NCBI RefSeq assembly: GCF_900142475.1
Contig: NZ_FRAY01000001.1
Span: 496,001-560,000 of the forward strand
Reading direction: 5' to 3'
Origin: Fibrobacter sp. UWH4
GTDB lineage: Bacteria; Fibrobacterota; Fibrobacteria; Fibrobacterales; Fibrobacteraceae
DNA: 64,000 nucleotides
A program made the position numbers and the translations under genes. Shown piece after piece: positions 29,678-34,128 of the stretch. Every line of letters begins with the position of its first letter. Position 1 is the stretch's first letter. The notes under the pieces are model-generated. The model was not told where the DNA came from and ran no database searches. It saw only the letters and a list, made by a program, of their open reading frames with translations.

Positions 29678-30736
29678 TTAAAGTAGCGCTAGAGCCTTTA
29701 GGCAGAAGCTGTTCGCAAAAAATTCTTGGGCTTCTTCTCGCTTGACCCACTGAATTTCATGCGCCGTTTTTGCAGAATTATTGCGAACGGGAGCCTTGCT
29801 TCTGAGCTGGATATGCAAAACGTCGCATTCCATTTTATGCACCGTGATGTTGTGCTTGAAGTTCCCGATGCATTGAACGCTTGTCACTAGGTCTGCGTTA
29901 AAGTAGGTTTCTGCCTGGGCGGGAATACCTGCGGTTGCGTTTCGCGGCGATTCAAAATGCGGCAGCGTGAACTGGTTCTTGAAGAATTTTTGTCCACCGT
30001 GGATTGCCAGAATCTTGTGGTCGCTGCTTTCGATGACGAGGACGGTTCCGTGCCAGTCCTTTTGAATGTGCTTTTTGCTGGGCGGAAATTCGGCGGTGCG
30101 ATTTTCAAGAGCCGCTCGGCAGACCTTTTGAAATGGGCAGCTTGCGCAATCGGGATTCTTGATTTTGCAGACTGTGCGGCCGAGTTCCATCAAAGCTTCG
30201 TTGTGCATGTAAGCCTTGGGCGAGTCGGCGATTTCGCGTGCGTAATCCCAGTAGGTTTTTAGGGCGTCCTTGGATTCCGTCGGCAAAAAAGCGAGCGCGT
30301 AAAGCCGCGAAAAAATGCGTACCAAGTTTCCGTCGAGAATCGCTTCTTGCTGGTGGTAGGCGAGGCTTAAAATCGCCCCTGCCGTGTATGCCCCGATACC
30401 GGGCAACGCTTCCAGTTCCTTGCGGGTCGTAGGCATGGTCGCCTTATTGTCATCCTGGAGCCGTAGGCGACGGGATCCATCCATTTTTTGCTGATTGATT
30501 ATCTTGGCCGTTTTCAGTATATTCCTTGCGCGGCTATAGTAGCCTAGCCCTTGCCAGTAGCGGAATACTTCACTTTCTTCGGCGGCGGCAAGCGTTTCTA
30601 TGTCGGGAAACCGCTCCATCCATCTTACGAAATAGTCGCGGACGGTAGAAACCTGCGTCTGCTGCAGCATAGTCTCGCTAATCCATACCGCATACGGATC
30701 GCGCGGCGCATCCAAATCGCTCAAGCGCCACGGCAA
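29678..30736 (-). CDS. mutY: A/G-specific adenine glycosylase MutY with repeat insertion and unusual start
   Basis: HhH-GPD glycosylase: VWISETMLQQTQVSTV with the catalytic Glu, EALPGIGAYTAGAILSLAY (helix-hairpin-helix), ILDGNLVRIFSRLY with the catalytic Asp, and a 4Fe-4S loop C-x6-C-x2-C-x5-C (CKIKNPDCASCPFQKVC). A C-terminal NUDIX-like domain follows. It removes A opposite 8-oxoG. The coordinates use TTG 30736, but conserved family sequence continues upstream in frame (LRNWFRKNAAD) with no ATG, GTG or TTG; the best start is ACG 30793, five bases from GAGGAG, inside a CATTGCGAG repeat. Residues 85-96 (MDGSRRLRLQDD) come from a GTCATCCTGGAG repeat and lengthen the loop by about 13 residues compared with E. 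coli MutY. Confidence 0.9.
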   Translation of the reverse strand: MPWRLSDLDAPRDPYAVWISETMLQQTQVSTVRDYFVRWMERFPDIETLAAAEESEVFRYWQGLGYYSRARNILKTAKIINQQKMDGSRRLRLQDDNKATMPTTRKELEALPGIGAYTAGAILSLAYHQQEAILDGNLVRIFSRLYALAFLPTESKDALKTYWDYAREIADSPKAYMHNEALMELGRTVCKIKNPDCASCPFQKVCRAALENRTAEFPPSKKHIQKDWHGTVLVIESSDHKILAIHGGQKFFKNQFTLPHFESPRNATAGIPAQAETYFNADLVTSVQCIGNFKHNITVHKMECDVLHIQLRSKAPVRNNSAKTAHEIQWVKREEAQEFFANSFCLKALALL

Positions 30737-30778
30737 ATCAGCGGCGTTCTTGCGGAACCAATTGCGGAGTTCTTTTAA

Positions 30779-30812
30779 GGATTGCTTCGTCGTGATACTC
30801 CTCGCAATGACG
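30779..30812 (-). repeat. CATTGCGAG repeat at the mutY start
   Basis: On the minus strand the copy reads GTCATTGCGAGGAGTATC then ACGACGAAGCAATCC. It has the same order as the copy at 34096-34128, with ACG here where that copy has the ATG start codon. Confidence 0.7.
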
Positions 30813-30847
30813 TTCTGAATTCTGAAATCCGAATTCAGAATTCAGGA
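30813..30847. repeat. GAATTC-rich intergenic repeat
   Basis: TTCTGAATTCTGAAATCC, GAATTCAGAATTCAGG: overlapping short palindromes centred on GAATTC. Similar strings occur at 34139-34182, 35190-35256 and inside rsmB. Confidence 0.5.
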
Positions 30848-32275
30848 TTAAATCCCGTACGCTTCTTTTTTCAGTTTCCTAAAGTATTCGAACTGGGCCT
30901 TGGTGGAAGATTCCATAGTGTACTTGAGGCTGCGTTCGTGGGCTGTCTCGCGCATCTTGGCGTAGGTGTCGGGTTCTTCAAGGTACAGCTTGCGGCATTC
31001 TTCCAGGGCGTTCAGCCAGGCGTCTTCGTCAATCGGCAAGATTCGGCCGGCGGCTTCGTCCATCACGATGTCGTGCGGTCCGCCGTAATCGCTGACGATA
31101 GCGGGCGTGCCGGTGGACATGGCTTCTACGACCACGTTCCCGAAGGTATCCGTTGTGCTTGGGAACAGGAAAAAGTCGGAATCGGCGTAAAGGCCTGCGA
31201 GTGTTTCGCCGCCCTGTTCGCCTGCAAAATGCACGCTGCTGTCGCCTTCGAAAAATTTCTTGATTTCTTCGAGGTACCAGCCGTAACCCACATACATAAG
31301 TTCTACGTCATCGTGCTTGGCTGCAAACTTTTTCCAGACGCCGTTCAAGAATTCCAGGTTCTTTTCCTTGGAAATGCGCCCGATGAACGAAAAACGAACC
31401 TTGCGCGCGCTGCTATCGCTGTACTTTTCCCAGGTACCCTTGCCGCGTAGGTTCTGCGAGAATTTTTCGAGCGGGAGTCCGCGGGGCAAAATTTGCACCT
31501 GGTTTTCGGGCACTTTTAGCTGCGAAGTCAGAATGTTCGCATAGTCCTTGCAGGGGCTGACCACGGGGCGTGTCATGCGGTAGAAAATCTTCATGAGCCA
31601 AAGCACAAAGTGGAACATCCACTTGGCTTTCACGAGCGTCTTGGTGTAAGTCGGAACGTCGGTGCGGTAGTGGCTGAATACCTTGATGCCTGCGACTTTC
31701 GCGCAGAAGCAGACAAGCCATGCGCCAGGACTCGGCGTCTCGAATTCAATCAAGTCGACGGGATAGCGCTTGAGCAGGCGAAGCACCGGACCCACGCGGG
31801 GTATTGCCAATTCACTGTTGGCGTAACCCAGCTGTTCCATGCTGAACATACGCGGAAGCAAAAGGCAGTAGCCGTTTTCCACGACGCCGCAGGGGCGCGT
31901 GTTGAAGGCGTTTCCGGCGAGGAAAGCATTCATACCGTGAGCCCGCATGTAGGGAATCACGTTTCTTAAGTTGTTTGCAATTCCGTTGGTTTCGTCCAGG
32001 TTGTCGGAATAAAAAAGAATGCGCACATCATCGGCAGGGTGTTGCTTGCGTTCTTTTTTCAAATAGAATCGCAACTTCAAGAGTTTCGGTAAATTAAGAA
32101 ACAGCGACCCGAATACGATCGGCGGAATCATGCCGGTGCGCAAATTTCCGGGGGGCTGGTGCTTGAAACCGAACATCTTTCGGAAGGTGCTCGTGACGGT
32201 GCGTCCAAAGATAGCCGGACGCGTATCTAAAACGTCGGTGGCTTTAAGCTTTGTTGAATTTGACGCAGTCGGCAT
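30848..32275 (-). CDS. Glycosyltransferase, GT4-like
   Basis: The 475-residue protein has a two-Rossmann GT-B layout. The N-terminal domain contains VRILFYSDNLDETNGIANNLRNVIPYMRAHG; the C-terminal domain contains VRFSFIGRISKEKNLEFL (donor-binding), DVELMYVGYGWYLEEIKKF, and FLFPSTTDTFGNVVVEAMSTGTPAI with the E-x7-E type motif. It probably builds a membrane glycolipid or surface polysaccharide (mannosyl- or glucosyl-transferase); the sugar is not predictable. ATG 32275 has AAAGGAG six bases upstream and lies inside the end of hisA (32-base overlap), so translation is probably coupled. Confidence 0.85.
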   Translation of the reverse strand: MPTASNSTKLKATDVLDTRPAIFGRTVTSTFRKMFGFKHQPPGNLRTGMIPPIVFGSLFLNLPKLLKLRFYLKKERKQHPADDVRILFYSDNLDETNGIANNLRNVIPYMRAHGMNAFLAGNAFNTRPCGVVENGYCLLLPRMFSMEQLGYANSELAIPRVGPVLRLLKRYPVDLIEFETPSPGAWLVCFCAKVAGIKVFSHYRTDVPTYTKTLVKAKWMFHFVLWLMKIFYRMTRPVVSPCKDYANILTSQLKVPENQVQILPRGLPLEKFSQNLRGKGTWEKYSDSSARKVRFSFIGRISKEKNLEFLNGVWKKFAAKHDDVELMYVGYGWYLEEIKKFFEGDSSVHFAGEQGGETLAGLYADSDFFLFPSTTDTFGNVVVEAMSTGTPAIVSDYGGPHDIVMDEAAGRILPIDEDAWLNALEECRKLYLEEPDTYAKMRETAHERSLKYTMESSTKAQFEYFRKLKKEAYGI

Positions 32276-33065
32276 ACTTCACTCCTTTGCCACCGAACAG
32301 GTCCAAGGCCGATCCGATGGTGAGATCAATCGTTCCGTTAGAAATTTGTTTGCAATGCTTGAGGTCTTCAAGCGACTTGGCGCCTCCCGCATACGTGCAA
32401 GGAATCGGGCTGTGCTCGGCGAGGAACATAATCAGTTCATCGTCCATGCCCTGCTGCTTTCCTTCGACATCGGCAGCGTGAATCAGGAATTCGTCGCAGT
32501 AACGCGAAAGGTCTTCGAGCGTTTCCTTGTTGATTTCGATGTCTATCAAAGTCTGCCAGCGGTTCGTGGCGATTTTCCAGCGGGGGCGTGCTTCGTCCGG
32601 ATCGTCGATTTCGTCGTCGGGGACAAATTGCTTTTTCTTCGCGGAACTCACGCGCTTGCAGCTCAAGTCAAGCACCAGGTGCTCCTTGCCGACCGTCTTG
32701 GAAAGCAATTCCAGTCGCTCACGGTCGAGCTTGCCTTCAGGGAAAATCCAGCTTGTCACGATTACATGAGATGCGCCTGCATCCAGATATTCTTTCGCGT
32801 TCTCGGCAGTGATGCCGCCGCCGACTTGCAGTCCGCCGGGATAGGCGGCGAGCGCTTTTTTCGCGGCTTCGGTGTTGCCCTTGCCGAGCATAATCACGTG
32901 GCCGCCCCTGATTCCGTCTTTCTTGTAGAGCTCCGCAAACCAAGCGGGGGAACGGTCCGTTTCGAAATTCGTCTTGAGGCCAGCTCCGCTGTCATTCAGC
33001 GAACTGCCTACAATCTGCTTTACACGTCCGTCGTGCAGGTCGATGCAGGGGCGAAACTTTGTCAT
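32244..33065 (-). CDS. hisA: Eukaryotic-type HisA (ProFAR isomerase, HIS6-like)
   Basis: The 273-residue TIM-barrel protein resembles yeast His6 rather than ordinary bacterial HisA: MTKFRPCIDLHDGRVKQIVG, GHVIMLGKGN, LQVGGGITAENAKEYLDAGASHVIVTSW, LVLDLSCK, NRWQTLIDIEINKETLEDL, EFLIHAADVEGKQQGMD, TYAGGAKSLEDL and DLTIGSALDLFGG. It isomerises ProFAR in histidine synthesis. An acidic insertion (FVPDDEIDDPDEARPRW) lies near residue 150. ATG 33065 overlaps the stop of the upstream gene by one base and the glycosyltransferase starts inside its end. Eukaryote-type hisA genes are known in some bacteria, so this is not proof of recent transfer. Confidence 0.9.
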   Translation of the reverse strand: MTKFRPCIDLHDGRVKQIVGSSLNDSGAGLKTNFETDRSPAWFAELYKKDGIRGGHVIMLGKGNTEAAKKALAAYPGGLQVGGGITAENAKEYLDAGASHVIVTSWIFPEGKLDRERLELLSKTVGKEHLVLDLSCKRVSSAKKKQFVPDDEIDDPDEARPRWKIATNRWQTLIDIEINKETLEDLSRYCDEFLIHAADVEGKQQGMDDELIMFLAEHSPIPCTYAGGAKSLEDLKHCKQISNGTIDLTIGSALDLFGGKGVKYADCVKFNKA

Positions 33066-34108
33066 TAGTCTTTAACTCCGGTAATGCACCAGTCCAGTTT
33101 TTTTCCGTGGCTTGCGTCGCTACGACCCCTGTAAAAGAGGACTTCGCCGCCGGCTGCAATCTGGAAGGCCTTCTTGGCGAACCAGCCGTCTACCTTGTCC
33201 AATAGGCTAGCTTTCTGGAGCGTCTTTGCCACGCTGAACTTGAGTGCAGGAATAGAGGCGTCTTGCCATTCGAAGGTCAAGTCGCCTTTTGCAAATTTCT
33301 TGCCGTTGTAGTTGTCGCTACCTTCCTTGATGGCCTTGGGGGTTGCGACTTTCATTCCGGATTCGTCCTTGTATAGCGCGTATCCGAACGGTTCGCCACT
33401 TTTGGAAATTGAGACTCGTCCTGCAAATAGCGGGCTGCGGGCGCTGGTGCTGAAGTTGACCGAACGTGCGGCCATATCGGTGGCCTGCTCGGTTTGCCAG
33501 GTCTGATCCATGTAGGCGTAGCCCTTTACGGCGATGGTGTCTTCGTTGTAGGCAATTTTGCCTTTTACGCGTCCGTAAGGAATGTGCACGTATTGTCCGA
33601 ATGTTTCCTTGCCGATTTTCCACACGCCGTTACCGGGAACTTTCCCGACTTCGGCAGATTCGAAAGTCACGTCGACCAGGAATTTGCCTCCCTTGTCGGC
33701 AGAAAAGAACACGCGGTGATCTTTGCCCGGCTTGTGCTCCATCGCATATTCGCCGTTGATGTCGATGCTTGCCGTGGCCTTGTTTGCCTTCAGGCGTTCC
33801 GGCGGATACTGGCGGCCAACCGTGTACGTTTTGCTCTTGAAGTTCCAAAAGCTCATGTCGCAGGTGACCTTTTTACCGGCGCCAGGAATATGGAGCGTAG
33901 AATAGTTGATAAAGGCGCGAGTGCCGTTGTCGAAAACGAACTGGTAACTCCAGGTCTCGTTGAATTCCTTGACGCTGCTCTGGTGCGGCATAAAGTCGTC
34001 GACAGAAACGTTACGCACGGAACCCTGCGGCGCCACCACATCGCCTGCAAAAGCAAACGATGTACAGAGTGTTGCCATAATCGCTATCAGTATAGATTGC
34101 TTTGTCAT
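33065..34108 (-). CDS. Secreted lipocalin-like (CrtC/Svf1-type) protein
   Basis: A signal peptide (MTKQSILIAIMATLCTSFAFA, cleavage near residue 21) is followed by a beta-rich protein with DMSFWNFKSKTYTVGRQYPPE, GRVKGKIAYNEDTIAVKGYAYMDQTWQTE and RSPLFAGRVSISKSGEPFGYALYKDESG. The order and the Y-x-D-Q-x-W-type motif recall the double lipocalin fold of hydroxyneurosporene synthase (CrtC) and yeast Svf1, but similarity is low and the ligand is unknown. ATG 34108 has GAGGAACGAAC upstream. Ribosome binding site, start codon and signal peptide all lie in a copy of the CATTGCGAG..AAGCAATC repeat (34096-34128), and the codons after it still match the repeat. It is co-transcribed with hisA (one-base overlap). 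Confidence 0.6.
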   Translation of the reverse strand: MTKQSILIAIMATLCTSFAFAGDVVAPQGSVRNVSVDDFMPHQSSVKEFNETWSYQFVFDNGTRAFINYSTLHIPGAGKKVTCDMSFWNFKSKTYTVGRQYPPERLKANKATASIDINGEYAMEHKPGKDHRVFFSADKGGKFLVDVTFESAEVGKVPGNGVWKIGKETFGQYVHIPYGRVKGKIAYNEDTIAVKGYAYMDQTWQTEQATDMAARSVNFSTSARSPLFAGRVSISKSGEPFGYALYKDESGMKVATPKAIKEGSDNYNGKKFAKGDLTFEWQDASIPALKFSVAKTLQKASLLDKVDGWFAKKAFQIAAGGEVLFYRGRSDASHGKKLDWCITGVKD

Positions 34109-34128
34109 GTTCGTTCCTCGCAATGACA
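34096..34128 (-). repeat. CATTGCGAG repeat supplying a translation start
   Basis: On the minus strand: GTCATTGCGAGGAACGAAC, then ATGACAAAGCAATCTATACT. The similarity to the copies at 47984 and 49690 continues downstream into the signal-peptide codons (ATACT..T.GC.AT). Confidence 0.65.

Follow-up and report, generated by a model that had tools for sequence, protein, structure and literature searches.

Organization of the mutY locus

The window analysed here, a stretch of 64,000 nucleotides, belongs to a 3.70 Mb Fibrobacter draft genome in 22 contigs. Its minus strand carries, in this order, genes for a sugar epimerase/dehydratase, an exported-protein-like product (beginning at 34108), HisA, a family 4 glycosyltransferase and MutY. 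The HisA gene (32244-33065, minus strand) matches the eukaryotic-type NCBIfam model TIGR02129 with 408.2 bits, far above its cut-off. The glycosyltransferase frame upstream of mutY closes with a stop at 30848 (minus strand), and the gap between the two genes consists of repeats only: an AATTC-type hairpin and a palindrome of a dispersed family, referred to below as family A. The features of the mutY region are the following:

30815 to 30847, minus strand: AATTC-type dispersed repeat hairpin with a 12-bp stem, filling the remaining intergenic gap
30780 to 30808, minus strand: copy of the dispersed palindromic repeat family A at mutY, with its CGTC tag at 30812-30809
30798 to 30803, minus strand: GAGGAG, a Shine-Dalgarno-like sequence brought by the repeat, a putative ribosome site
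30791 to 30793, minus strand: ACG, the best-placed candidate start, aligned with the ATG of the relative L040 and with no canonical start upstream
29678 to 30793, minus strand: mutY frame counted from the candidate ACG start, 371 amino acids, beginning TTKQSLKELRNWF
30734 to 30736, minus strand: TTG at LPWR, the first canonical start, where initiation would drop residues 1-19 including helix 3-16
30449 to 30478, minus strand: family B repeat, in frame inside mutY in the loop before the HhH motif, encoding GSRRLRLQDD

The original prediction, that mutY has no normal start, is borne out by the reading frame, in which ATG, GTG and TTG are all absent from its opening (~30841), just after the upstream stop, to the TTG at 30736. 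The 5' region has the sequence ...IQNVIARSITTKQSLKELRNWFRKNAADLPWR..., and the minus-strand translation around the start reads ...*ILNSDFRIQNVIARSITTKQSLKELRNWFRKNAADLPWR.... From 30812 to 30779 the minus strand can be parsed as CGTC-ATT-GC-GAGGAG-TATC-ACG-ACG-AAG-CAA-TCC, which is a family A copy that includes the candidate gene start (CGTC-ATTGC-GAGGAG-TATC-ACGACGAAGCAATCC); the first codons of mutY thus lie inside a dispersed palindromic repeat, as had also been proposed. The GAGGAG stands 4 nt from the ACG at 30793 and 7 nt from a second ACG at 30790. Further upstream, the AATTC-type region has 100% matches elsewhere over positions 33-62 of the query. Read at the level of the DNA, these observations show that the mutY start codon is missing and that a dispersed repeat occupies its place.

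Comparison with other Fibrobacter mutY genes

The comparison comprised 79 distinct mutY 5' ends, drawn from 197 loci and the window, with an ATG being counted when it lies 5-16 codons before a conserved W. ATG starts were found in 67 of these ends and GTG or TTG in 6, whereas the remaining 6 have none. The possibility that orthologues all begin at LPWR can therefore be set aside, as in 73 of the 79 a canonical start is found 5-16 codons ahead of the conserved W. The start-less ends are those of the window, L087, L029, L032, L081 and L191. A tree was built from 69 of the 79 ends, comprising those of sufficient length and L191; its well-supported branches require three independent start losses, in the window, in L087 and in the clade formed by L029, L032, L081 and L191. 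In L087 an AATTC repeat lies at the start and an in-frame ATT follows 6 nt after AGGAG; the members of the four-locus clade have their nearest ATG 33 codons upstream, and hence count as start-less only within 16 codons.

The relative L040 reads ATGGATAAGCAATCC where the window reads ACGACGAAGCAATCC (over a longer span, ATGGATAAGCAATCCTTAAAAGAACTCCGCAATTGG against ACGACGAAGCAATCCTTAAAAGAACTCCGCAATTGG). Its ATG start occupies the position of the ACG at 30793, and from AAG onward 30 of 30 bases are identical, placing the junction on sequence common to the native gene and the repeat tail. CAATCC is found at the same site in the repeat-free relatives L040, L084, L013, L053, L057 and L049, so mutY already held the sequence that ends the repeat. 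The mutY contig of the relative L088 (OMSO01000002.1) also carries, ~5 kb away from the gene, another segment that matches the C-terminal part of MutY.

Recombination at the shared CAATCC identity would be the simplest route to capture of the repeat. More specifically, we propose that a family A repeat entered the start of mutY by recombination over 9 identical bases, AAGCAATCC, which are common to the repeat tail and native codons 3-5 and would point to a microhomology mechanism. Comparison with the relatives shows that the repeat has taken the place of the native leader and ATG of mutY. The earlier suggestion that the ATG was lost through the repeat agrees with the position of the ACG at 30793, which falls exactly where L040 has its ATG and where other copies of the repeat have GTG or ATG.

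Paired variation in family A accounts for the ACG

The pattern ATTGCGAGN{4,34}GAAGCAATC has 51 exact matches in the 3.70 Mb genome and the reversed control pattern has 0, so family A is not a chance pattern. The inner arms are complementary in 21 of the 23 GG-type copies (shuffle mean 7.5; 0 of 10,000 shuffles as high) and come in a few flavours: GC/GC in 10 copies, GT/AC in 5, AC/GT in 5 and three singles. The flavour sets the codon that precedes ACG-AAG-CAA, which is GCG, ACG or GTG. With its GT/AC inner arms, the mutY copy spells ACG at the start position, where an AC/GT copy spells GTG. The original prediction had aligned the ACG with the ATG of the repeat copy at the neighbouring gene; the position stands, but a simple point change between ATG and ACG does not, given the paired variation of the inner arms. 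Elsewhere in this genome, no gene was observed to begin at an ACG-flavoured family A copy, a point against an ACG start in mutY.

The same pairing bears on whether a sequencing or assembly error conceals an ATG in mutY. The assembly is a draft of 22 contigs and repeats are prone to mis-assembly; against this, the repeat at mutY has a regular form in which AC is paired with GT, in keeping with the 21 of 23 complementary copies, an ATG would break the pairing, and two other lineages lost their mutY starts independently. We regard such an error as highly improbable.

The window copy is predicted to form a 5-bp stem, an internal loop and a short inner stem, and it folds no better than shuffled sequences (z -0.06), so RNA structure provides no argument here. 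The Y1 transposase domain (Y1_Tnp) had no match in this genome (G000) and is present in 27 of 80 genomes of the genus.

Where mutY translation may begin

ACG is a very poor bacterial start and, to our knowledge, is not a recognised start of translation table 11. Near-cognate bacterial starts do exist, for instance the AUU of infC, which likewise opens an intact gene without ATG, GTG or TTG; mutY differs in that its codon is borne by a dispersed repeat. The repeat supplies its own GAGG, a Shine-Dalgarno-like sequence and putative ribosome site, and other copies have GTG or ATG at the same place, from which it follows that the repeat could act as a portable translation start. We therefore favour a reading in which the repeat has captured the translation start of mutY, with weak initiation at the ACG at 30793, a proposal that we hold with about even confidence. 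MutY would most likely still be made from this codon as a full-length protein, in small amounts, through near-cognate initiation.

Two alternatives place the start elsewhere. In the first, which we consider unlikely, the repeat took the start but initiation occurs at AUU 30808, AUC 30796 or the second ACG at 30790. All three are in the mutY frame, the second ACG has a 7-nt spacing from GAGGAG, and the start-less relative L087 offers a comparable in-frame ATT 6 nt after AGGAG. However, no Shine-Dalgarno-like sequence precedes AUU 30808, AUC 30796 is 1 nt from GAGGAG, and none of the three aligns with the L040 ATG. The second alternative, quite unlikely in our estimation, is an N-terminally truncated MutY that starts at TTG 30736 and lacks residues 1-19. 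In the mutY frame no canonical start precedes this TTG, and the catalytic residues lie downstream of it, but a start there would remove L9, W12, F13 and N16, which are invariant in 36 aligned sequences, together with helix 3-16, and MutY structures align from residue 1 of the model. The codon is moreover not conserved, being TTA in L040, and no obvious Shine-Dalgarno sequence precedes it.

The mutY product is otherwise intact

Beyond the ACG at which we would place weak initiation, the encoded protein has the hallmarks of MutY. The best family by far is TIGR01084 (mutY), at 266.6 bits, below the equivalog cut-off of 286.5, and the HhH-GPD domain PF00730 scores 64.1 bits, above its cut-off. The catalytic residues E40 and D154 are invariant in 36 aligned MutY sequences, as are C209, C216, C219 and C225 of the iron-sulphur ligand motif C-X6-C-X2-C-X5-C, which is present. 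An AlphaFold model of the window protein (mean pLDDT 86.9, pTM 0.64) matches MutY structures with Z 24-25, aligned from model residue 1 and with the C-terminal domain included.

Between the window and its nearest relative, L039, mutY has a dN/dS of 0.156, slightly the highest of twelve pairs (0.066-0.148 in the 11 others). The window branch has 32 synonymous and 22 nonsynonymous changes, the sister branch 46 and 42. If MutY had been lost long ago, the share of C:>A changes should be higher, while a recent loss would leave no trace. Of the third-position changes scored in mutY together with the four neighbouring genes upstream, C:>A makes up 5 of 69 on the window branch as against 12 of 107 on the sister, with no G:C-to-T:A excess on the former.

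These data address the possibility that a recent loss of the start has in effect silenced mutY and set it on the way to a pseudogene, which we deem rather unlikely. The missing canonical start is in its favour, and the frame being still open leaves room for a recent capture. Relaxed selection is not seen on the window branch and there is no transversion signature, but both measures would miss a very recent event; since the capture may be recent, conserved sequence and substitution spectrum would overlook a functional loss. Within these bounds, the suggestion that MutY is damaged is so far unsupported, with catalytic and cluster residues intact, an ordinary dN/dS and no G:C-to-T:A excess in the lineage, and the comparisons show a window mutY that is otherwise intact as a sequence.

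Repeats inside mutY

A second repeat lies within the coding sequence. Family B, defined by the pattern GTCATCCN{10,40}GGGATC, has 100 matches genome-wide, including a few nested ones, and 0 for the reversed control. The loop that it encodes in the window MutY is modelled with low confidence (residues 106-112 below 50). The insert is common to the window and L039 and absent in L084, L013, L016 and L017, and L040 has a family A-like insert in the same loop. At this loop and also at a second one, which follows FLPT, other mutY relatives carry different inserts.

The loops could be read in 65 of the 79 mutY genes, and in 39 of these they span at least 16 codons. A family A or B end motif occurs in 16 of the 39 long loops (shuffled expectation 1.03), as compared with 2 of 39 for the stretch before the loop. 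When the longest perfect arm of each insert was compared with shuffles, only 3 of 39 loops scored as palindromic, and the window family B copy folds no better than shuffles; the case for a repeat origin of the loops consequently rests on copy number and end motifs.

Family A copies at the starts of other genes

The features at the neighbouring gene are the following:

34095 to 34124, minus strand: family A copy with the ATG start of the neighbouring gene, reading GAGGAACGAAC-ATG-ACA-AAG-CAA-TCT
33065 to 34108, minus strand: exported-protein-like gene, beginning MTKQS in the repeat, with no Pfam or NCBIfam match

The start of this gene is ATG in the window and GTG in L200, L201 and L202, within the repeat or a close variant; L199 has a GTG in a partial family A copy, and the repeat is absent from loci L203-L210. 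Among the 9 ATG-bearing copies listed, long frames start only from those in L121 (the window) and L125, the other 7 having none.

Another case is a TrmB-like methyltransferase, which matches PF02390 and falls below the TrmB equivalog cut-off. Its conserved core could be anchored in 16 of 30 loci, a readable anchor being absent in 14. In five species (L251, L253, L254, L255 and L256) the repeat GTG is the only in-frame canonical start before the core; the remaining 11 of the 16 anchored loci start elsewhere. The repeat likewise encodes VTKQS in the CbiQ-type transporters L285, L301 and L307 (L285 matched PF02361) and in the M15 peptidase-like genes L283 and L300 (L283 matched PF01427).

The pattern search found 68 GTG-flavoured copies in 38 of 80 genomes, of which 32 distinct ones were read. 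A frame open for at least 200 codons was present in the repeat frame in 11 of these and in another frame in 9, counts that do not separate the frames, so the argument for the repeat as a start rests on conservation among orthologues. Three candidates were not counted: the GTG of L292 need not be the start, an in-frame ATG with AAGGAGG lying upstream, and the frames of L235 and L233, which resembled start-less or GTG-start genes, are by eye probably antisense (L233 has no Pfam match). In L113 and L240, the n-region of a lipoprotein-like and a signal-peptide-like N-terminus comes from family A sequence.

On this evidence, other genes appear to begin, or to have their only candidate start, at GTG- and ATG-bearing family A copies, an arrangement that is conserved between species. 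A broader proposal, which we advance tentatively and with less than even confidence, is that the REP-like palindrome is a portable initiation cassette (GAGG, GTG/ATG, TKQS) recurrently captured by unrelated Fibrobacter genes, and that its paired-arm variation made a natural ACG start in mutY.

Relation to known repeats and implications

Repetitive extragenic palindromes (REPs) tagged with CGTC have been described both at N-termini and within genes, which are often repair genes; some were equated with Rickettsia palindromic elements (RPEs), while many N-terminal copies were taken as probably extragenic (Di Nocera et al. 2013, PMC3733652). That article contains 0 occurrences of Fibrobacter. As described there, CGTC REPs and family A share the CGTC tag, the A-T/A-T stem foot, a short CC-type tail and dispersal, and the Fibrobacter repeats further resemble them in having no dedicated transposase, in copies within genes and N-termini and in DNA-repair targets. 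The window copy has the tag and stem foot (CGTC-ATTGC...GCAAT-CC), but it does not form the continuous 8-9 bp stem with a 4-5 nt loop given there for the superfamily. We therefore call family A REP-like and do not assign it to any of the four published families. Compared with the CGTC REPs as presented there, family A is also distinguished by replacement of a start codon and by GTG/ATG flavours that mark a conserved start site.

RPEs are likewise in-frame palindromic insertions in conserved genes, comparable to the family B and varied loop inserts of mutY; the loop insert in the window and L039, absent in L084, L013, L016 and L017, is of this type. The likeness is one of insertion pattern, and the host is another. 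Across the genus Fibrobacter, inserts of different repeat families occur in the same two MutY loops, and start capture comes in addition. Literature searches on Fibrobacter palindromic and genome repeats, in-gene palindromic elements, bacterial ACG starts, REP start sites and Fibrobacter MutY brought up no account of the finding among the entries listed, which is no proof of its absence. Palindromes within genes are thus a known type; what is added here, as judged from the sequences, is a repeat that has replaced a start codon, along with repeat-borne starts that orthologues have in common.

The mutY locus illustrates concretely how selfish repeats may rewrite where conserved genes begin translation and what their N-termini are, and it may be a natural example of a DNA-repair gene that relies on near-cognate initiation. 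One strain would suffice to measure the start, the amount of protein and the mutation rate. If the proposal is true, the flavour of a repeat could determine how strongly a mutation-avoidance gene is expressed.
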